DNA of 53,041 nucleotides from Muribaculaceae bacterium (GTDB lineage: Bacteria > Bacteroidota > Bacteroidia > Bacteroidales > Muribaculaceae). Made by a program: the position numbers and the translations under genes. The stretch is from positions 1 through 53,041 of the forward strand of contig JAIDSM010000135.1 in the NCBI GenBank assembly GCA_029061225.1, read 5' to 3'. The notes below the pieces were generated by a model, which had not been told where the DNA came from, did not search any database, and saw nothing but the letters and a program-made list of their open reading frames with translations. Position 1 is the stretch's first letter. Each line of letters opens with the position of its first letter. Below, one piece after another: positions 11,918 through 23,870 of the stretch.

Positions 11918-12997
11918 TTATTTGAATTTGTGATCGCAATATCGGCAACGCAAGGAGCCGTCGGCCGATCGGTAGGCTCGTCGTGGTGATTTTTCGTTGC
12001 GCGTGATGCACTTCTTGTTTTCACAACGGAGATTGTCAGGAACATCCACTTCCTCCACTGCCGGCATGTTGTGCTTAACGTCGTCTTTCCAGTCAAGGAG
12101 ACTGGAGATAAGCGCCATACGCACGAACTTGCCGTTTTCCACCTGCCTGAAGTACGCGGCTCTCGGGTCGGCGTCGACTTCCTCAAGAATCTCGTTGACG
12201 CGGGGGAGCGGGTGGAGCACCGCCATCTTCTCCTTCGCGAGCTTCATTTTCTCGCAGTCGAGCACAAACGAGTCTTTGACGGCCTCGTATTCGTCCTCGT
12301 CAAGGAAACGCTCTTTCTGAACGCGGGTCATATAGAGGACGTCAAGCTCCGGCATTGCCTCCTCGAGAGTGTCGACCTCTTTATATTCAAGACCAAGTCG
12401 GTCGCAGACATCCTGCTTGATATAGTCCGGGAGTCTAAGCTGCGGGGGCGCAATCAGAACGATCTTAATGCCTTTCTGTCGCGACAGAGCCTTGATCAGG
12501 CTATGTACCGTACGTCCGAAACGCAGGTCGCCGCAGAAGCCGATTGTAAGGTCGTCAAGACGGCCGAGCTCACGGGTAATAGTGAGAAGGTCGGTCAGTG
12601 TCTGTGTAGGATGCGCGTGGCTGCCGTCGCCTGCATTGATGATAGGCACGCGGCTCACTTCTGTGCCGCCAAGCTGGGCACCTTCGATATGGTGGCGCAT
12701 CGCAATGATGTCGGCGAAGTTCTCCACAACGCGCACAGTGTCGCGTACTGTCTCGCCCTTGCTGACGGAGCTGCTTGCGGCGTCAGCGAAACCGAGCACA
12801 TTACCTCCGAGCTCCATCATAGCGGCAGTGAAACTCAGGCGGGTACGTGTGGAAGGTTCATAGAAGAGTGTGGCGAGTTTCTTTCCCTTGCATTTCTCCG
12901 AATATTTGGCACGGTTGGCGATGATATCGAGCGCGAGGTCGATGATCTCACGTGTTTCTTCCACCGTAAGGTCGGTCGGATCTATAAGATGTTTCAT
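11918..12997 (-). CDS. pyrB: Aspartate carbamoyltransferase with fused PyrI-like zinc tail
   Basis: It transfers the carbamoyl group of carbamoyl phosphate to aspartate in step 2 of UMP synthesis. The 359-residue protein carries the carbamoyl-phosphate loop PSTRTR (48-53), the HPLPR loop (262-266) and a complete catalytic domain ending near 308. After it comes a tail with C325-x4-C330 and C351-x2-C354, the spacing pattern of the zinc domain of the regulatory chain PyrI (Cys4, here with 20 residues between the pairs). The nucleotide-binding half of PyrI is missing. I see no pyrI in the operon. It lies 12 bp after pyrE. Confidence 0.94.
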   Translation of the reverse strand: MKHLIDPTDLTVEETREIIDLALDIIANRAKYSEKCKGKKLATLFYEPSTRTRLSFTAAMMELGGNVLGFADAASSSVSKGETVRDTVRVVENFADIIAMRHHIEGAQLGGTEVSRVPIINAGDGSHAHPTQTLTDLLTITRELGRLDDLTIGFCGDLRFGRTVHSLIKALSRQKGIKIVLIAPPQLRLPDYIKQDVCDRLGLEYKEVDTLEEAMPELDVLYMTRVQKERFLDEDEYEAVKDSFVLDCEKMKLAKEKMAVLHPLPRVNEILEEVDADPRAAYFRQVENGKFVRMALISSLLDWKDDVKHNMPAVEEVDVPDNLRCENKKCITRNEKSPRRAYRSADGSLRCRYCDHKFK

Positions 12998-13010: not shown

Positions 13011-13643
13011 TTATGCTTCCATCCAGGAAGTATCGCTTGGATTGTCGCGGAATTTAAGGATACGGTTTTTCCAAACCGGCTCGATATAACCTTCCTCAGC
13101 GGCCACCTCTACGAGTGTGTCGAGGTTTGATAGTGAGTGGTTGGTGACGTTGGCTGCAGCCAGACGGTCGGTGGCCTTCTTCATGCCGTACGTGAAGATG
13201 CTGACGATACCGAGCACTTCAGCTCCTTCCTCGCGCAGAGCCTCAACTACCTCGATACAGCTGCCACCTGTAGAGATGAGGTCTTCTACTACAACGACCT
13301 TAGTCCCTGGTTCGCATTTACCTTCGATGCGGTTTCCACGGCCATGGTCTTTGGCGCCTCCGCGTACGTATCCCATCGGCTTATCGAGAAGCCAAGCCGT
13401 GATTGCAGCATGGGCTATACCTGCTGTCGAGGTTCCCATAAGAGACTCAGCCTCCGGATAGTATTTCTTAATGAGTTCAGCAAGCCCCTCTTCGATATCC
13501 TTGCGTACTGCCGGGTAGGAGAGAGTAAGACGGTTGTCGCAATACATCGGGCTCTTTATTCCTGAAGCCCAGGTGAAAAGTTCTTCAGGACGCAGGAATA
13601 CCGCGCCCACACTGAGAAGATCTTTAGCTATTTTCTTTTCCAT
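13011..13643 (-). CDS. pyrE: Orotate phosphoribosyltransferase
   Basis: It joins orotate and PRPP to give orotidine monophosphate. The 210-residue protein has the PRPP-binding motif VVVVEDLISTGGS near 115-127, GVKxxPxYCDNR-type substrate residues early (SPMYCDNRLTLSYP) and the usual family length. It lies in the pyr operon between pyrF and pyrB. The 123 bp upstream to pyrF holds AT-rich sequence with a small run of the 7-bp unit ATTATGC/ATTGTGC but no promoter that I can see. Confidence 0.95.
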   Translation of the reverse strand: MEKKIAKDLLSVGAVFLRPEELFTWASGIKSPMYCDNRLTLSYPAVRKDIEEGLAELIKKYYPEAESLMGTSTAGIAHAAITAWLLDKPMGYVRGGAKDHGRGNRIEGKCEPGTKVVVVEDLISTGGSCIEVVEALREEGAEVLGIVSIFTYGMKKATDRLAAANVTNHSLSNLDTLVEVAAEEGYIEPVWKNRILKFRDNPSDTSWMEA

Positions 13644-13766: not shown

Positions 13767-14468
13767 TTACTGGCCGAGGAACTCGCGGCAGCATCTTTCA
13801 TAGGCCGCTTTCGGATCCTCGGCTTTCGTAATAGGACGGCCCACGACTATATAGTCAGAACCGATCTCGCGCGCTTTGGCGGGAGTCATCACGCGCACCT
13901 GGTCGTCGGCGGCGGAGTCGGCGAATCTGATTCCCGGAGTGACAGTGACAAACTTATCGCCGCATGCTATCTTGACGATCGAAGCCTCGCGCGGCGAGCA
14001 TACCACACCGTCGAGCCCTGACATCTGGGCGTTCTTCGCATAGCTGGCCACCACTGCGTCAACTTCACCGGGGATGAGAAGGTCTTCGTTCATAAGTTCC
14101 TTGCTTGTGGATGTAAGCATCGTCACGGCGATCAGAAGGGGACGAGTTCCGTCGGGACGGGTCAGACCCTCGATGGCGGCTTCCATCATCTTGTGTCCAC
14201 CAAAGGCGTGAAGGTTGGTCATGTCGACGTCAAGGTGGGAGAGTACAGACATTGCGCTTTTTACCGTATTGGGTATGTCGCAGAGCTTAAGGTCAAGAAA
14301 AATCTTATGTCCCCTCTTCTTGATCTCCTTTATTATTTCCGGACCTGCGGCATAGAAAAGTTCCATACCGATCTTGACGTAGGGCTTCCTGTCGCCAAAC
14401 TTGTCAAGGAATTCGAGTGTCGCTTCCATCGAAGGGAAGTCACACGCTATGATCACATCTTTCGCCAT
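13767..14468 (-). CDS. pyrF: Orotidine 5'-phosphate decarboxylase
   Basis: It makes UMP, the last step of the pathway. The 233-residue protein shows the catalytic [10 protein letters not shown] stretch (about 59-68) containing the Asp-Lys-Asp network, a phosphate-gripper end ([12 protein letters not shown]) and normal length for the short bacterial form. Its start overlaps the end of the PyrK-PyrD gene by 16 bp, so the two are translationally linked. Confidence 0.95.
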
Positions 14469-16162
14469 GATATTCCTATTATGTCTTTTATGTTGTTTAT
14501 TTTCAGTTTCTTCAATACCTCAGGGAGTTCGTCGGCTATTTTCTTGCTTGCCAGCGGGTCGACCAGGTTGGCCGATCCTACCTGCACCGCGCTTGCTCCG
14601 GCCATCATCATCTCTACTACGTCTTCAGCCGAAGACACACCGCCGCAACCCATCACGGGGATGCTTACCGCCTGCGCCACCTGGTATACCATCCTTACGG
14701 CTACAGGGAATACTGCCGGGCCCGAGAATCCTCCCATTCGGTTGGCTATGACGGGAGCCCCGGTGTTGATGTTGATGCGCATTCCGAGCAGTGTGTTGAT
14801 CAGGGTCAGACCATCGGCTCCGGCGGCCTCGCAAGCCTTAGCTATGGAGACGATATCCGTCACATTGGGGGAGAGCTTGATGAAAACAGGTTTTTTGACA
14901 GCTGCCTTGACTGCCCGCGTCACTTCGGCTGCCTGTTCGGCTGAAGTTCCGAACGCCATGCCTCCGTTATGAACATTGGGGCAGCTGACGTTGACCTCGA
15001 TGATGTCCACTCCTTCGCATGCATCGGCCTTGCGGCAGGCTTCTACGTATTCTTCTATTGAGAAGCCGCTCACATTGGCGATCACGCATCCTGCGTAGAT
15101 CTTGCGTAGCTCCGGCACTTCATGAGAGTAGACGGTGTCGGCTCCGGGATTCTGGAGTCCCACGCTGTTTATCATGCCGTCGGGGGTCTCAGCGATACGC
15201 GGAGTTATGTTGCCGAAACGTGGATTGAGAGTCGTGCCTTTGATGGAAATGCCTCCAAGAGCGTTCAGTTCGTATATCTCGGAAAATTCCTGACCGAAAC
15301 CAAATGTGCCGCTGGCCGGAACCACAGGATTCTTCAGTTCGATACCGCAAAGCGAGGTTTTGACTGCGGGTTCTCCTTCGAGTCTGCGGTCGCGAGGCAG
15401 TGTCGGAGCAGGAGTGCCGTTCCCCTTGAAATGCTTCATCAGCTCTGCGCTGAATACCGGACCATCCTTGCAAACCCGTTTTGGTCCCCATGGAGTTTCG
15501 ATGGTGCATCCCATGCAGGCTCCGAATCCGCAGCCCATCCGTTCCTCCATGCTTACCTCTCCCTTGCCGCAGTCGAGTTCGCGGCCGAGTGCTGAGAGCA
15601 TCGGGAGCGGACCGCAGGCATACCAGAAGTCGAATCCCCGCATCTCCGGCTTGCGGATGGCATCCGTGACAAATCCCTTGGTTCCCGCACTTCCGTCTAC
15701 TGTCGCTACTTCCACCATGGCCCCGAGGTCGCGGAACTTATCGGCATAGAAAATCTCTTCGGCGGTATTGAAGCCGAGAGCCACTTTCACTTTCTTTCCA
15801 TCGGCCAGAAGTCTGCGAGCGAGTAGGTATAGCGGAGGTACACCTACGCCTCCACCGGCAAGAAGAGCTGTCTCACCGCATTTTGAAGTGTCGAAGCCGT
15901 TGCCGAGTCCTGTCAGAAGGTCGAGCTCAATGCCTGGAGCCATTTGAGCCAAAGCCTCGGTGCCTTTACCTACGGTCTTGAAGATGAGGGTCAGACGGTT
16001 TCCTTCTATATCGCATACGGAGATCGGGCGTCTCAGATAGAGACCGGGTATTGAAATCTCAACAAATTGCCCCGGCTTGGAGAATGCCGAGCAGTCGCCC
16101 CGGAGTGTCATCTCGAAGACTGTCTCCGTGAGTCGTGTAATTCCAGTTATTTCAAATTTCAT
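14453..16162 (-). CDS. Fused dihydroorotate dehydrogenase B: electron-transfer (PyrK) plus catalytic (PyrD) subunits
   Basis: A single 569-residue frame holds both halves of NAD-dependent dihydroorotate dehydrogenase. Residues 1-245 are PyrK: the FAD motif RRPISV (44-49), the NAD-binding glycine loop (GGGVGVPP, 103-110) and the [2Fe-2S] cysteines C211, C216, C219 and C231. After a linker rich in Pro and charged residues (about 246-266), residues 267-569 are class 1B PyrD with GTFGFG, NVSCPN (active-site Cys394), KLSPN and an FMN phosphate site near [11 protein letters not shown]. The two proteins are normally separate and form a heterotetramer. No stop or frameshift is visible at the joint. 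Confidence 0.95.
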
Positions 16163-16324: not shown

Positions 16325-19300
16325 TTATCGTGAAATCATACCGTTGCCTTTCCGGCCGTATTCCGCATCGATGGTGGATACCCCCATAGTGATCTCCTCG
16401 AGCACATCAAGAAGCACCCTTACGGTCTCCAGTGCCGTGAAGATCGTCACATTGTTTTCGATCGCTATGCGCCGTATGTCGTATCCGTCGAGGCGTGTGT
16501 TGTGCTGGTTGACGTCGATGGTGTTTATGACGTAGCTCACGTGGCCCTGACGCAGTGACCGCTCTATGTCGTTGCTTCCTTCGCTGAACTTGCCAAGGGT
16601 GCGGCAGCGTATTCCGTGGTCCTTGAGGTATTTTGCAGTGCCTCGTGTAGCTTCTACGTTAAAGCCGAGGTCATAGAATCGGCGTATCAAAGGAAGAGCC
16701 TTTTCCTTATCGTCGTTAGATACGGTCACCAACAGTGTTCCGTAGTTCAACACCTGCATTCCGGAGGCCTGCAGCGACTTGTAGAGGGCACGCGTTAGCA
16801 TGTCGTCATAGCCGATGGCCTCTCCGGTAGATTTCATCTCCGGGGAAAGATATGAGTCAACGCCCTTGATTTTCGAGAATGAAAAGGCGGGGGTCTTGAC
16901 AAACCAACGCTTACGGTCGGGGTAGAGGGTCATGTCGTAGCCCTGACTTTTAAGACTTTCGCCGAGCATGACTTTAGATGCGATCTTAGCCATGGGCACA
17001 CCGGTGGACTTGGAGAGGAAAGGAACAGTTCTGGAGCTACGGGGATTGACTTCGATTACGTATACGTTTTCGTCTTTATCAACGATAAACTGGATATTGT
17101 AAAGACCAACGATACCGATTGCCTTTCCGAGTCTCACGGTATAATCGACGATGGTCTGCCTTACATTCTCGCTTACGCTGAATGTTGGGTAGACGGATAT
17201 TGAGTCGCCGGAGTGAATGCCGGTCTTTTCAACGTGTTCCATGATACCCGGAATCAGCACGTCTGTGCCGTCGCATATTGCGTCTACCTCGAGTTCCTTA
17301 CCCATTATGTACTTGTCTACGAGCACAGGGCTATGGTCGGAGATGTCGACCGCGTTCTGCAGATAGTGTCGGAGTGCCTGCTCGTTGCCTACGATCTGCA
17401 TCGCGCGGCCTCCCAGCACAAAGCTCGGACGCACAAGCACCGGATATCCTATTCTCTCGGCTGCTTTCACTCCGCTTTCGATGTCGGTGACTGCTTCTGC
17501 ATCAGGTTGCGGGATTCCCGTCTCACGCATGATACGTTCGAAATGCTTGCGGTCCTCAGCCCTGTCTATGGCTTCGAGGCCGGTTCCGATAATAGGGACT
17601 CCGAGTTCAGCCAGAGGCGCGGCAAGGTTGATTGCCGTCTGCCCCCCGAGGGTCACAATTACTCCATGGGGTTTTTCAAGCCTGACTACGTTCATGACGT
17701 CTTCAACCGTGAGCGGTTCGAAATAGAGTTTGTCGGAGATGCTGTAGTCTGTAGATACGGTCTCAGGATTGTTGTTGATGATGATGGCTTCATAACCCTG
17801 CTCGCGGATCGTCTGGATGGCATGCACTGTTGAGTAGTCGAACTCAACACCCTGGCCTATACGGATAGGGCCGCTGCCAAGCACCAGTATCTTTCTGCGG
17901 TCGCTTACCTCTGACTCATTCTCCTCTTCATAGGTCGAGTAGAAATAGGGTACGTATGAATCGAACTCTCCCGAGCAAGTGTCGATCATCTTGTAGACCG
18001 GTGTTATGCCGAGAGATTCCCTCATCTCGCGAATATCAGCCTCTGTACGGTTGCGGAGTTTGGCAATGTATCGGTCGCTGAATCCCATGCGCTTTGCCTC
18101 GCGCAGCAGCCCGGCGTCAAGCGTGTCGGCGTCTTGAATTTCCCACTCCATCTTTATGATGTTGTTGAGTTTCTCAAGGAAGAAGAGGTCGATGCCGGTC
18201 TTTTCGTAGATATGCCAGAGAGCCACTTTCCTGCGGAGTAACTGTGCAATAGCGAGCAGACGGTCGTCTCGTCCGTCTTTGATATATTGAAGGATATCCT
18301 CCGTCGGCATATCCTCGAATTTTTTTGAATAGAGGTGATCCACGCCAGTCTCGAGCGAACGGATTCCTTTCAGAAGCGACTCTTCGAAAGTTCTGCCTAC
18401 GCTCATGATTTCTCCGGTAGCCTTCATCTGTGTGCCGAGAAGGTTTGATGCCTCGCTGAATTTGTCGAAGGGGAAACGTGCTATCTTCGTCACGACATAG
18501 TCGAGCGCAGGCTCGAAACTTGCCGGTGTGTTGGCTATCTGGATCTCGTCGAGCGTCATTCCGACTGCGATTTTCGCACTAACGCGGGCGATAGGATACC
18601 CCGTAGCCTTGGAGGCGAGCGCTGAACTGCGCGATACACGCGGATTGACCTCTATGATATAGTAATTGAAAGAGAGGGGGTCGAGGGCAAACTGAACGTT
18701 GCAGCCTCCTTCTATCTCAAGCGCACGGATGAGGCGCAGGGCTGAGTCACGCAGAAGCTGGTATTCCTTATTGGTGAGTGTCTGGCTCGGTGCCACTACC
18801 ACCGAGTCTCCGGTGTGTACGCCTACAGGGTCTACATTCTCCATGTTGCAGATGGTGATGGCCGTGTCGTTGCTGTCGCGCATCACCTCGTATTCGATTT
18901 CCTTATATCCTTTTATGGATTTCTCCACAAGCACCTGATGTACGGGAGAAAGGGTGAGCGCGTTGCGCATCAGTTCCCGAAGTTCATCCTCATTGTCAGC
19001 GAAACCGCCTCCTGTGCCTCCGAGAGTGAATGCCGGGCGTAAAACAACCGGATATCCAATCTTCTCTGCTACCTTCACGCCTTCGTCGATGCTGTTGACG
19101 ATTTCGGAGGGGAGTACCGGTTCACCGAGGCTGAGGCAAAGTTCCTTGAAGAGCTCCCGGTCTTCAGCTTGCTCTATGCTTTTGAAGGAGGTGCCGAGTA
19201 TTTCTACTCCGCATTCTTCGAGGATCCCCTTTTTTGCGAGCTGAACCGCTAAGTTGAGGCCTGTCTGTCCGCCGAGACCCGGGACTATGGCGTCGGGTCG

Positions 19301-19543
19301 TTCGAAACGGATGATCTTGGCGACGTATTCAAGCTTAAGTGGCTCCATATAGACTTTGTCGGCGATTCCGGTGTCGGTCATGATCGTCGCGGGATTGGAA
19401 TTGACGAGGATTACCTCGTAGCCCTCCTCCTTCAGTGCGAGGCAAGCTTGGGTGCCGGCGTAGTCGAACTCAGCTGCCTGTCCGATGATGATAGGGCCTG
19501 ATCCGATCACCATCACCTTCTTGATATCTTTTCTCTTAGGCAT
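16325..19543 (-). CDS. carB: Carbamoyl phosphate synthase, large subunit
   Basis: It makes carbamoyl phosphate from bicarbonate, ammonia (delivered by CarA) and two ATP. The 1072-residue protein has the expected duplicated layout: two ATP-grasp halves, each opening with a [18 protein letters not shown] loop (about 12 and 560), and each with an ExNPRxSRxxxL segment ([24 protein letters not shown]). A C-terminal MGS-like allosteric domain (about 930-1072) is where UMP and effectors bind in other bacteria. The length is normal. Its start overlaps the carA stop by 8 bp. Confidence 0.97.
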
Positions 19544-20645
19544 TTCTCACCTCCTTTTCTTTCTTATGTTCCTCCATGTCGCGGATGAAGACGTCGAAGA
19601 GATAGCCGCTGTCCTGCGGGCCCGGCGCGCTCTCCGGGTGATACTGTACTGAAAAAATGTGCTCTTCCTTGTTTCTCACTCCTTCTACGGTTCCGTCGAG
19701 AAGGTTGAGATGTGTTATTTCAAGGTCGGTGTCGCGTACGCTTTCGGGGCGAACCGCATAGTTATGGTTCTGGGAAGTGATCTCTATCTTGCCTGTGAGC
19801 ATATTCTTCACCGGATGGTTGGCGCCTCGGTGTCCGAACTTGAGTTTGTATGTCTTTGCTCCGAAGGCGAGAGATATGATTTGATGTCCCAGGCATATTC
19901 CGAAGATCGGGAGTTTCCCACGCAGTTTCTTCACGAGGTTTCTCACTTCCGGTACATCTTCAGGATCGCCTGGTCCATTGGAGATGAAGATGCCGTCGGG
20001 CTTGAAGGCCATGATCTGCTCGGCATCCATGTTGAAGGGAACGATGATCACGTTGCATCCTCGCTCGTTGAGTGACCGGATGATGTTGAACTTTATGCCG
20101 CAGTCTATGGCCACCACATTGAACTTCTGATTCTGCGTGCGCGAAAACCAACGCTTCTTGCAGCTTACTTTAGCTACTACCTTTTTGTCAATCGGGGTGT
20201 CGGCGATGAGCTTGAGAGCCTCTTCCGTAGGTGTGTCGACCGGAACGATTGCTGCGCGCATACATCCCTCGTCGCGTATGATTCGTGTCAGCTTGCGTGT
20301 GTCGATTCCGCTGATAGCCGGTATGTTGGCTTCTTCGAGAGTCTCGGTCATAGTCTTGGTGTAGCGGAAATTGGAGGGTGATTCGCAGCATTCTCGCATA
20401 ACCATTCCGCCGATTGTCGGCGATTTTGTCTCGAAGTCATCGTCTGTGATGCCGTAATTGCCTATTAGCGGGTAGGTCATCACGACAATCTGGTTCGTAT
20501 AGGAGGGGTCGGAGAGGATTTCCTGATAGCCTACCATCGAGGTGTTGAAGACTACCTCTCCGACTATGCTGCGACGTGCGCCGCAGCTTTGGCCCGGAAA
20601 TTCCTGTCCGTTTTCCAATACAAGTTTTACGTCTGCGTCTTTCAT
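19536..20645 (-). CDS. carA: Carbamoyl phosphate synthase, small (glutaminase) subunit
   Basis: It hydrolyses glutamine and channels ammonia to CarB. The 369-residue protein has the N-terminal CPSase small-chain domain ([14 protein letters not shown]) and a class I glutamine amidotransferase domain with nucleophile Cys251 in GICLGHQ and the His-Glu pair in YHPES. Position 2 of the operon, after pyrC. The 109-bp gap to pyrC contains one copy of the 27-bp palindromic repeat. Confidence 0.97.
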
Positions 20646-20754: not shown

Positions 20755-22056
20755 TTACTGTCTGAGGTTCACTTGCAACCCATTATATAAAAGTGCTGTT
20801 GGTTTGCCCGTAAGTTCCATTCCTTCGAATGGAGTCGCTTTCCCCATCGATCTGAATTCGTTGCTGTCCACTGTCCACTCTCTTTCGAGGTCGAAAACCG
20901 AAAGATTGGCTTCTCCTTCCACTTCGAGTCTGAAAATGCGCCGTGGATTCAATGACATGAGCTCCACAAGCCTCTTGAGAGTGATTATGCCGGTTTTTAC
21001 CAGATGAGTGTAGCATACTCCGAACGCTGTCTCGAGTCCGACTACCCCCATGGCGCTTCCTTTGAGGCCTCGGCTTTTCTCGTCGGCTGTGTGAGGCGCA
21101 TGGTCGGTGGCGATGCAATCTATTGTGCCGTCTTTGATGCCTTCGATGAGGGCATCGCGGTCTTCTCGGCTTCTAATCGGCGGATTCATCTTGAAGCGCC
21201 CTTCATCCTTAAGGTCTTCGTCGCAGAATACAAGGTAGTGTGGGCCGGTTTCGCATGTGACTTTCACTCCGCGCGCTTTAGCCCGGCGTATTAGTTCCAC
21301 ACTTTCTTTAGTGGAGATGTGGCATACATGATAGCGGCACTCGGTCTCTTCAGCGAGTTTAAGGTCGCGCTCAATCTGTCCCCATTCGCTTTCCGAGCAG
21401 ATTCCCTTATGACCGTTGGCTTTGGCATATTCTCCATCATGGATATATCCTCCTTTTAGAAGATCGTTGACCTCACAGTGTGCGGCGATGATTACATCGA
21501 GTCTTGCGGCTTCCTTCATAGCTTCGCGCATCATCTCCTCGCTTTGCACACCGCTGCCGTCGTCGGAAAATGCTACAGCATATTGCTTGAGAGCTTCCAT
21601 GTCGACGAGTTGGCGCCCCTTGCGGTCGATTGTGATCGAGGCATAGGGATAGACGTTGATGGCGGCGTCTTCCTTTATGTGGTTCAGCTCTACGCCGATA
21701 TGCTCTACTGTGTCCGGGGTAGGGTTGAGGTTCGGCATCGCGCATATTGCAGTATATCCTCCCATCATGGCGGCTGTCGTTCCTGTATAGATTGTCTCCT
21801 TCGCCTCGAAGCCCGGCTGGCGAAGATGCACATGCACGTCGCAGAGGCCATAGGTTACGAGCCGGTTGTCCATATTATATTTAGATACATTCCGATCGGA
21901 AAGTTTGATATAGCCGCTCCGCTCGATTCGTAATATCTTGCTATCAAGAATCTCGATGTCGGTATGTTCCGAAGCTCCGTCCTTATCCACCCATAGGCAG
22001 TCATGCAGCACGTAGTGTTCCGGCATCTGCTCAGCCGGCAAATCATGATATGTCAT
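20755..22056 (-). CDS. pyrC: Dihydroorotase
   Basis: It cyclises carbamoyl aspartate to dihydroorotate. The 433-residue amidohydrolase has the metal motif HVHLR (H75, H77), a second-shell AHCE, a downstream HIST segment and the DHAPH motif. I choose the ATG at 22056, preceded by an AGAAGAAAAAG purine stretch, over an in-frame TTG at 22080. This is the first structural gene of the operon and the one placed directly behind the leader attenuator. The long form (over 430 residues) is the class I type common in Bacteroidetes. Confidence 0.95.
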   Translation of the reverse strand: MTYHDLPAEQMPEHYVLHDCLWVDKDGASEHTDIEILDSKILRIERSGYIKLSDRNVSKYNMDNRLVTYGLCDVHVHLRQPGFEAKETIYTGTTAAMMGGYTAICAMPNLNPTPDTVEHIGVELNHIKEDAAINVYPYASITIDRKGRQLVDMEALKQYAVAFSDDGSGVQSEEMMREAMKEAARLDVIIAAHCEVNDLLKGGYIHDGEYAKANGHKGICSESEWGQIERDLKLAEETECRYHVCHISTKESVELIRRAKARGVKVTCETGPHYLVFCDEDLKDEGRFKMNPPIRSREDRDALIEGIKDGTIDCIATDHAPHTADEKSRGLKGSAMGVVGLETAFGVCYTHLVKTGIITLKRLVELMSLNPRRIFRLEVEGEANLSVFDLEREWTVDSNEFRSMGKATPFEGMELTGKPTALLYNGLQVNLRQ

Positions 22057-22110: not shown

Positions 22111-22144
22111 AAAAAAAACACGCATCCCCTTTCGGGGTGCGTGT
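22111..22144 (-). terminator. Intrinsic terminator (putative attenuator) between the pyr promoter and pyrC
   Basis: On the minus strand an 11-bp stem (ACACGCACCCC with GGGG-A-TGCGTGT, one bulged base) and a GAAA tetraloop are followed by eight T. It lies about 60 nt downstream of the predicted start of transcription and 55 bp before the pyrC ATG. It therefore stands inside the operon's own leader, although it could also stop transcripts coming from the gene at 22278. Confidence 0.8.
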
Positions 22145-22147
22145 CCC

Positions 22148-22201
22148 TTACAGCACGTATGCCATATGTTTTCTTTCTATGTATTGCATCGTCGGTTTCA
22201 T
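22148..22201 (-). CDS. Putative 17-residue leader peptide of the pyr operon
   Basis: A short frame encodes MKPTMQYIERKHMAYVL and stops 3 bp before the 5' arm of the terminator hairpin. A ribosome finishing this peptide would cover the hairpin's first arm and could prevent termination, which is the geometry of translation-coupled attenuation known from enterobacterial pyrBI. The ATG is only about 5 nt from the predicted transcript start, so initiation could be leaderless, or could use the second (22189) or third ATG (22165, after a GAAAGAAAA stretch). Whether the peptide is made is an inference; composition gives no clue to the signal. Confidence 0.45.
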   Translation of the reverse strand: MKPTMQYIERKHMAYVL

Positions 22202-22209
22202 TTCGACTG

Positions 22210-22240
22210 CAAAATTACAACAAAAATCTAAGTTGTCAAA
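22210..22240 (-). promoter_or_regulatory. Promoter of the pyr operon
   Basis: On the minus strand TTTG (22240-22237), a 19-bp spacer and TAATTTTG (22217-22210) give a full consensus match. The predicted start is near 22206. The promoter lies between the upstream secreted-protein gene and pyrC. Confidence 0.82.
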
Positions 22241-22277: not shown

Positions 22278-23870
22278 TTATCTGATGACTTTTTTGACTA
22301 CCGATGAGCCATTGCGTTCGATGACCATTGTTCCCTTTGCAGGGGCGGTTACCTTTACGCCCTGTAAGTTGTAATATTCCTTGTTTTCGCTGTTGGCTGT
22401 AGTCATTGAGTCAACTGCGCTTCCCTCAGGTAGAGTGAGTGAAAGAGTGCCTGATCCGTTTCCGTAATACCATGTGCCGTCTTGTCCACCGAATATACTC
22501 ATGTTCTCACATGTAGTCAATACAGATTTGGCCGGGAAAGATATGATTCCGTCTTTAAATTTGCCGAATGTGCTTGCATTTGCAGTTGATCCCTGTATTT
22601 CCTCTAAGAAATAGCCGGTGTTGACAGCTATCCACCATTCTCCACCTGTATCGATTCCGAGATTGGTGGGCTTGAAGAAGACTTTGTCAGGATTCGTGGT
22701 GTCAAAGACGAGATATATGTCAAATCCTTCTGCCCTAAGTGAAAGTTCAGGATATGGACAGTTCAAACCATAAGGATTTACTACCCTGTAGAGCGACGGA
22801 TTGTCAATGTTTTGCTGCACTTCGACCTTGTATGCCGGAATGTTAATGTCAAATAGCGATTCGAACATATCCGTTTTGAATTCGCCTTCTCCAAGGGAAG
22901 TCCATCCTTCGCTTGAGGATGAGGTGAAGGTATATTCAGCGTAGTCCCATTCGAGAGGAGTCCCATTCGTGGCGAATGTGATTGCCACTATAGTATACAT
23001 TCCATTGCCTTCCTTGGCTGTCAGGTCTATTTTTCCAGCTTCATTGATTGATACCACTCCACTGTCGTTGTGTATGACTGCGTCTATCTTTTCCTGACTC
23101 ATGATGCCTTCGAAACAACCGTATCTGCACTCTGCTACAGAGGATGGGAATACAATGGTCGCCGACATATCTGAGATATCTTTGTAGAAAGCTTTCGCAT
23201 CCACTGTCACACTCATGTCTGCCACACCGTCGAATTGGAATGAACAGTCGGTTAAAGCTACGATATCCTCAATACCTTCGGTAATGTAACCCAGATAAAG
23301 ATAGAATCTTCCAAGTTCTGGGATGTAATAAGTGTAAGGAGCATATTCAGCCACAGTTTCTTCTATCTCTTCCGGGCTCATTCCCTGCCACTCTTCACCA
23401 TAGATTTCAAATACACTTGCCGCATCTACCACATCAAGGGGCATTCCGAATGCGTCGATGTTTGTGGGCTGAGGAAGCACCTTGCACAGTGAGGTGTTGG
23501 CGTCATAGTCGACTATTATTGTTGCGTCATTGTAGATACCTTCAAATTTGTATTGTTGAGAAGACGCATTTTCGGTGCTCGTCCTGTGATACACTTTGAT
23601 CCCTTCAAATGCACCAACCCAATCTTCAAGGCCTAAGAAGAGTTCAAGTCCATCATCAATGGTGAATGTGCCCGTACCTGCCGGTTGCCATTCTCCCCAA
23701 GTGATGGTTTCGTCTGTTTTAGCCGGAGCTTTTTTCTGTGACGAAGGCTTGGCAAGAGAAAGGCTTCGGTTTGCTGGAGCCGGAAGATCTTTCATCAAAG
23801 GCGAGGCAGCCTGTGTAGCCATTGTTGCCGACGCAAGAAGAGAGAGGGTCAATAAGTAGATCTTTTTCAT
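22278..23870 (-). CDS. Secreted protein of unknown function with C-terminal sorting-like tail
   Basis: A 530-residue protein with a signal peptide (about 1-21, ending TQA), a low-complexity Ser/Ala/Lys-Pro stretch to about residue 55, then beta-rich sequence with repeated 'W...G...F' units (WGEWQPAGTGTFTIDD; WTSLGEGEFKTDMF) that suggests two related domains of about 180 residues. The tail (YYNLQGVKVTAPAKG...VVKKVIR) is the short sorting/secretion signature typical of Bacteroidales surface proteins. It shares this plan with the protein at 7456-9186. It has its own promoter and no obvious terminator of its own except the pyr leader hairpin. The function is not recognised. Confidence 0.8.
   Translation of the reverse strand: MKKIYLLTLSLLASATMATQAASPLMKDLPAPANRSLSLAKPSSQKKAPAKTDETITWGEWQPAGTGTFTIDDGLELFLGLEDWVGAFEGIKVYHRTSTENASSQQYKFEGIYNDATIIVDYDANTSLCKVLPQPTNIDAFGMPLDVVDAASVFEIYGEEWQGMSPEEIEETVAEYAPYTYYIPELGRFYLYLGYITEGIEDIVALTDCSFQFDGVADMSVTVDAKAFYKDISDMSATIVFPSSVAECRYGCFEGIMSQEKIDAVIHNDSGVVSINEAGKIDLTAKEGNGMYTIVAITFATNGTPLEWDYAEYTFTSSSSEGWTSLGEGEFKTDMFESLFDINIPAYKVEVQQNIDNPSLYRVVNPYGLNCPYPELSLRAEGFDIYLVFDTTNPDKVFFKPTNLGIDTGGEWWIAVNTGYFLEEIQGSTANASTFGKFKDGIISFPAKSVLTTCENMSIFGGQDGTWYYGNGSGTLSLTLPEGSAVDSMTTANSENKEYYNLQGVKVTAPAKGTMVIERNGSSVVKKVIR

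Follow-up and report, generated by a model that had tools for sequence, protein, structure and literature searches.

A short leader precedes a complete UMP operon

The window (the whole stretch of Muribaculaceae DNA that we analyzed, 53,041 nt) carries on its minus strand pyrC, followed by carA, carB, a pyrK-pyrD fusion, pyrF, pyrE and pyrB, which together make up the full UMP pathway. Judging from gene order and strand, a single transcript would run across all of them. Upstream of pyrC, whose ATG is at 22056, lies a short leader. The features of the locus, all on the minus strand, are:

22210-22240, minus: putative promoter, TTTG (22240-22237), 19 nt, and TAATTTTG (22217-22210); TAATTTTG is present in 14/14 copies
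22205, minus: predicted transcription start, 4 nt 5' of the ATG, with the TAATTTTG box assumed to lie at -12 to -5
22148-22201, minus: leader ORF of 17 sense codons and TAA, MKPTMQYIERKHMAYVL; ATG, length and TAA or TAG in 14/14 copies
22149-22166, minus: P2, a 7-bp hairpin and putative pause hairpin, which ends inside the stop codon
22134-22137, minus: C-run, a putative CTP-sensitive pause site that starts 11 nt past P2 and lies within the terminator 5' arm
22111-22144, minus: intrinsic terminator (hairpin 22144-22118, T-run 22118-22111), 3 nt after the ORF stop
20755-22056, minus: pyrC, dihydroorotase, first gene of the operon (TIGR00857, 389.7 bits; cut-off 279.05)
19536-20645, minus: carA
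16325-19543, minus: carB
14453-16162, minus: pyrK-pyrD fusion, 569 aa
13767-14468, minus: pyrF
13011-13643, minus: pyrE
11918-12997, minus: pyrB

An earlier note on this DNA, made from the letters alone, had reported the promoter, the 17-codon ORF and the terminator, and all three lie where it had placed them; it had mentioned neither the P2 hairpin nor the completeness of the operon downstream. The two upstream boxes would act as a promoter by the Bacteroidetes consensus, as given in the available part of its source (PMC9723704). The terminator hairpin (-19.3 kcal/mol in the window) has a stem of 7 + 4 bp with a single bulged A, closed by a GAAA loop, the first T of the T-run (22118) pairs within its stem, and the 168-nt leader stretch folds better than 200 of 200 shuffles (z -4.0). 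Both the promoter and the hairpin are absent from the output of a simple promoter/hairpin scan, because the consensus of that scan is sigma-70 and it allows no bulge.

At E 0.001, no NCBIfam family matches the 530-aa product of the gene on the 5' side of the promoter (22278-23870, minus). Within the PyrK-PyrD fusion, residues 9-240 form the electron-transfer part and residues 267-566 the dehydrogenase. The C-terminus of PyrB (residues 314-358) weakly matches the end of PyrI (TIGR00240, 21.5 bits, far below the cut-off).

The leader is shared by a group of related genomes

We built a covariance model of this leader, which we call type A, from 12 copies and found it before pyrC in 16 of the 111 genomes of the genus; 14 copies are full-length (E 9e-15 or better) and two are truncated where their contigs end (E 3e-6 and 0.011). 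The 16 carriers, all uncultured gut bacteria, are exactly the genomes with a pyrC at least 72% identical to that of the window, the other matches listed being at most 67% identical. In a family sample of 297 genomes, the model matched six carriers that were already known and, weakly, one genome of another genus (G040, E 0.009). The search of the genus had also given weak matches, in G204, G350 and G366 (E 0.04-0.05). Since the genus and family searches used the stricter filters that apply to sets of more than 40 genomes, diverged copies may have been missed. In nine of the 16 type A genomes, a single contig carries pyrC and, downstream on the same strand, pyrB; in the other seven, the best pyrB match is on a separate contig of a fragmented assembly.

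TTTG (the -33 element) is kept 18-21 nt from TAATTTTG in 10 of the 14 full copies, the remaining four having TTG only, and the predicted 5' UTR is 3-5 nt in all 14, which makes the ATG nearly leaderless.

The ORF is conserved in position and length, but its peptide is not

In all 14 full copies, an ATG is followed by 51 nt to a stop codon (TAA or TAG) with no indel, then by 3 nt and the terminator hairpin, which bears out the earlier claim that the ORF stops 3 nt before the hairpin. One copy, L038, has an additional in-frame TGA two codons ahead of the usual stop. Taken alone, the window ORF is at chance level, as 54% of 1000 dinucleotide shuffles hold an ORF under the same loose rule; the leader stands out from chance by the conservation of the whole unit, whereas an ORF in one sequence proves little. 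Across the 13 distinct leaders among the 14, the loose rule is satisfied by 13, compared to 6.2 expected. Moreover, the frame of the ORF is open in 12 of the 13 distinct bodies, compared to 3 and 7 in the other two frames, and shuffled columns reach 12 open bodies with P 0.027. These counts support a real ORF, although not strongly.

In contrast, the sequence of the peptide is not conserved. Among 462 codon pairs with a single difference, 22 are synonymous and 440 non-synonymous (4.8% synonymous), whereas column shuffles average 22% and 99.85% of them are at or above the observed value. Synonymous changes are thus rarer than in shuffled columns, which points to constraint on the nucleotides themselves. 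The earlier note had proposed to look in relatives for a conserved short ORF followed by a hairpin with a synonymous bias: ORF and hairpin are there in 14/14, but the bias is missing. Its absence argues against control through the peptide sequence, but not against a mechanism like that of pyrL.

A hairpin, a C-run and a terminator follow in fixed order

P2 is present in all 14 full copies and overlaps the last codons of the ORF. Counted over 12 sequences, pairing is retained in 96.4% of its cells, and it varies in ways that keep pairing: one pair occurs as GC, GU or AU, and another as UG, CG or UA. For the whole structure, the number of paired cells and the covariation score were each reached by 1 of 500 shuffles, values that relatedness alone can produce. 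Covariation is thin, as the two pairs that changed on both sides were equalled in 329 of 500 shuffles. The terminator hairpin ranges from -11.8 to -19.3 kcal/mol across the 14 copies, and 4 of 12 sequences have a compensatory change from a C-G to a U-A pair.

A run of four to six C lies exactly 11 nt past P2 in all 14 copies, compared to 0.21 of 14 expected when the part before the terminator was shuffled, a figure that is only descriptive because the test was devised after the pattern had been seen and because the sequences are related. Four or more C are retained in this run in 14/14, while the 3' arm departs from GGGG just before the bulge in L036, L038 and L007; in L039 the 3' arm has an extra A but keeps GGGG. 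This may be a weak hint that the C-run is retained for more than pairing.

A hairpin at the 5' end, around the AUG (GTCG..CGAC, ATTCCG..CGGAAT), was considered and rejected: by eye, L036 and L007 lack it or retain about two of its pairs, and transcription from the predicted start would truncate its 5' arm.

On balance, we favor the reading that the leader is a ribosome-operated transcription attenuator of the complete UMP operon. The alternative that survives best, which we consider rather unlikely but take seriously, is that P2 and the terminator belong to a structured RNA, riboswitch-like or protein-binding, within which the ORF is incidental and untranslated. Such an RNA would go well with the conservation of both hairpins and with a pattern of change that is unlike that of a selected peptide and reflects constraint at the nucleotide level, and an ORF of this length is common by chance. 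Against this, ATG, length and stop are fixed in 14/14 copies even though the loop and the 5' end of the leader vary in length, the two hairpins are compatible rather than mutually exclusive, and the window has no Rfam match. Furthermore, a different class of pyrC leader in the genus (class B, below) has a long ORF that reaches or crosses its terminator in 16 of 16 cases, compared to 2.25 expected from shuffles.

The leader travels with pyrC

Mean pairwise identity among the 14 copies is 0.79 within the leader, compared to 0.31 upstream of the promoter box and 0.35 over the first 50 nt past the T-run. Promoter, ORF and terminator thus travel as a single unit with pyrC, between flanks that are not conserved. 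No second promoter box lies within 110 nt past the T-run in any of the 14 full copies. We considered that the hairpin might instead be the terminator of the upstream gene, or that the leader yields a small RNA, and that pyrC is not controlled in either case. A gene on the same strand does end at 22278 in the window, just as the former idea would have it, but the terminator lies past the promoter and follows pyrC rather than the flanks from genome to genome, and with no promoter box behind it in 14/14 copies, both versions are improbable. We hold with high confidence that the leader is a transcription attenuator of the complete UMP operon. The proposal of a pyrBI-like attenuator of a pyrimidine operon in Bacteroidales, made in the earlier note, gains from this linkage and spacing, as well as from sister leaders that combine a longer ORF with a U-run.

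A ribosome on the ORF could control the terminator

In the mechanism that we propose, RNA polymerase would start about 4 nt 5' of the AUG, and P2 would fold behind it and, by analogy to hairpin pauses, slow it on the C-run 11 nt further on. When the nucleotide is plentiful, the pause would be brief, no ribosome would be near, and the terminator would fold and end transcription. When the needed pyrimidine nucleotide is scarce, the pause would be longer, such that a ribosome on the 17-codon ORF could catch up and open P2; once at the stop codon, which ends 3 nt short of the hairpin, it would cover the lower 5' arm, and the operon would be transcribed.

Several measurements in E. coli bear on this scheme, each taken from the available part of one study (PMC4824070). 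Ribosomes repress a terminator almost completely when it lies 5-6 nt past a stop codon, while one more than about 30 nt past it escapes; about 10 nt are protected beyond the ribosomal A site; and a ribosome is unlikely to reach RNA polymerase within the first 100 bp unless pause sites couple the two. With the stop 3 nt from the hairpin and the end of the T-run about 95 nt past the predicted start, both the position of the terminator and the need for a pause fit what that part of the study describes. By the same ~10 nt of protection, simple arithmetic has a ribosome at the stop covering 22147-22138, which comprises GGG and the lower 5' arm. We consider ribosome coupling of the attenuator likely.

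It counts against the mechanism that a nearly leaderless mRNA needs fast initiation. Ribosomes of Bacteroidota mostly work without Shine-Dalgarno pairing. To our knowledge, coupling of transcription and translation has been little studied in this phylum.

The leader resembles pyrL but has a C-run in place of the U-run

The type A leader shares with the E. coli pyrBI leader (pyrL) the order of promoter, short ORF, hairpin, about 10 nt, homopyrimidine run, terminator and first pyr gene, as well as a peptide whose sequence is apparently unimportant. Our analysis of pyrL as a positive control recovered a hairpin followed after 10 nt by UUUUU, compared to 11 nt in type A. The two differ in that type A has a C-run, located inside the terminator arm, where pyrL has a U-run; in that its ORF has 17 codons (44 in pyrL), starts nearly leaderless and ends before the terminator; and in that it would control a whole UMP operon beginning with pyrC. 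Because the U-tract is missing, we describe type A as working like pyrBI without filing it as a member.

In pyrL, scarce UTP makes polymerase pause where the template requires U, according to the part of PMC10135430 available to us. The response to UTP suggested in the earlier note finds no anatomical support in type A: U makes up 14-23% of the leader and the longest U-run is 1-2 nt in all 14 copies, with the C-run instead. In comparison, U averages 29% in 14 class B leaders (L147 excluded) and 34.5% in pyrL from ATG to terminator. Since the C-run stands where pyrL and many sister leaders have a U-run, we tentatively propose CTP as the nucleotide sensed. It fits type A better than UTP, but we keep this hypothesis at a low standing because the role of the C-run in the terminator would also explain its conservation. 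CTP is also thought to be the signal of the Gram-positive pyrG attenuator, which answers it by repeated addition of G at the 5' end. The initial G-run of that system is absent from the predicted starts of type A leaders, with 5' ends such as CGAAATG.

Classical attenuation by amino acids is another way to use a leader ORF: stalling at particular codons would let the 3' arm of P2 pair with the 5' arm of the terminator as an antiterminator. This pairing (UGCYGU with ACGCA) is indeed the minimum-energy form of the transcript lacking the 3' arm in 3 of the 14 copies, the window included, but it is not in the other 11. Moreover, the ORF has neither a run of one codon nor conserved residues, the hallmark of trp- and his-type leaders, and the genes of the operon make pyrimidines; we consider this reading very improbable.

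Reports from the same phylum involve short 5' ORFs as well. In the available parts of two studies, leader-peptide attenuation was suggested for amino-acid operons of Flavobacterium psychrophilum (PMC9723704), and short 5' ORFs resembling leader peptides were suggested to attenuate in B. thetaiotaomicron, in which 3.7% of 5' UTRs are shorter than 10 nt (PMC7366714). Unlike the type A leader, these cases, as far as those parts go, concern amino-acid operons or a hypothetical protein rather than pyrimidine genes. Attenuation of pyrimidine genes in Bacteroidota did not come up in the literature searched, which was covered by title and the start of the abstract and had most subscription papers outside its reach.

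Sister species have other pyrC leaders

Sister species of the genus have different pyrC leaders, in several classes that we assigned by eye. The largest, class B, is pyrBI-like with U-runs. Like type A, it lies before pyrC in the same genus and has an ORF that runs to or through a terminator; in contrast to type A, with which it is not alignable by eye, its ORF is longer, its terminator is its own, and a U-run is located 14-23 nt before the terminator. By the rule used for the ORFs of class B, an ORF reaches the terminator in three of six class C leaders, none of two class D leaders and the single class G leader, which comes from a Bacteroidales contig found in the search for pyrC relatives. 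Overall, 5 of the 25 sister leaders tested lack such an ORF; these were 25 of 32 leaders, with L015, L144, L154, L020 and three of class E left out. In the class E leaders (L162, L164, L167), only 30 nt separate the promoter box from the terminator hairpin; no ORF precedes this hairpin, which itself contains an ATG in frame with pyrC.

A hairpin followed after 9-11 nt by a U-run is found in 9 of 15 class B leaders. Without L147, whose shuffle rate of 1.0 is an artifact of which run was held fixed, this geometry occurs in 8 of 14, compared to 1.0 expected. A clear synonymous bias is likewise lacking in the peptides of class B, with frame 0 (57 to 132 and 51 to 118) being close to frame 1.

We also asked how often a promoter is followed by a terminator ahead of a gene. 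Such a leader was found at 10 of 10 type A loci tested (from the 16) and at 22 of the 44 non-type-A pyrC genes that had 100 nt or more of upstream sequence, compared to 1 of 124 control genes from 20 stretches of 20 kb in genomes of the genus. The non-type-A set was drawn from 66 of 68 matches (L013 and L019, cut by contig ends, were left out), 22 of which had less than 100 nt upstream. The gene-calling threshold was 120 aa for control genes and 100 aa for pyrC loci, the rule being otherwise equal, and upstream genes could be missed for L134-L178 because at most ~600-750 nt of upstream sequence was at hand.

Some sister leaders have further peculiarities. Six of class B (L010, L016, L134, L139, L140, L143) start with ATGAAATGA, an ORF of just two codons that overlaps, through its stop, the beginning of the leader ORF. 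At L015, a tRNA-Cys gene (L015:2905-2978, minus) is located between the putative promoter box and the class B pyrC terminator. L015 and L154 (G175:C50:135418-138509) are two divergent pyrC copies of one genome, each with a class B-like terminator upstream.

Origin of the operon and lack of a detectable PyrR

Outside the family, the best 80 of 276 pyrC relatives, found by a search that works from short patterns, are mostly from Clostridia, up to 66% identical, with some from other Bacteroidales, and the gene order presumably resembles that of Bacillus. We infer, from these relatives rather than from a tree, that a Clostridia-like UMP operon was acquired. PyrR (NF003549) exceeded the cut-off in 6 of 14 control genomes but in none of 41 relatives; sub-threshold matches occur in 31 of the 41, which are probably other phosphoribosyltransferases, and the source assembly itself is 86% complete. 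A PyrR-dependent attenuator of the Bacillus kind would suit the gene order and the Clostridia among those best 80 relatives, but given a PyrR count of 0/41 and a window in which Rfam finds no match, we give it almost no credence. Rfam also had no match at 20 of the best 80 loci, from Clostridia and similar bacteria, which says little because pyrC need not come first there.

Returning to the ribosome-operated attenuator, type A could be a compact, CTP-sensing form of the pyrBI switch, in which polymerase would undergo a hairpin pause at a C-run that doubles as the terminator 5' arm, and the stop codon of the nearly leaderless ORF would park the ribosome on that arm. The leaders of the genus would then have diversified into several classes, with UTP and a U-run in some and CTP and a C-run in type A, once leader control had been imposed, with no PyrR, on a Clostridia-like operon; we regard this scenario as possible but doubtful. 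If the leader does work through a ribosome, the ribosome-coupled nucleotide attenuation of enteric bacteria would exist in Bacteroidota too, and would show how a UMP operon is regulated with no detectable PyrR. Natural leaders of one gene with U-runs and with C-runs allow a direct test of the nucleotide sensed.

By eye, the canonical pyrB genes of 15 genomes of the genus have no promoter-then-terminator leader, and the hairpins upstream of canonical pyrB in L209 and L212 precede the nearest promoter box. In Paludibacteraceae and related Bacteroidales (L073, L079, L081, L082, L086, L087, L090, L092, L093, L102; L101), pyrC begins a few nucleotides past a hairpin located where the mRNA is predicted to start, seen by eye as GCAAATT..AATTTGC, GCAATTTT..AAAATTGC or, in L101, AGAGT..ACTCT. 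These 5'-end hairpins recall the start-site switch of enteric pyrC.
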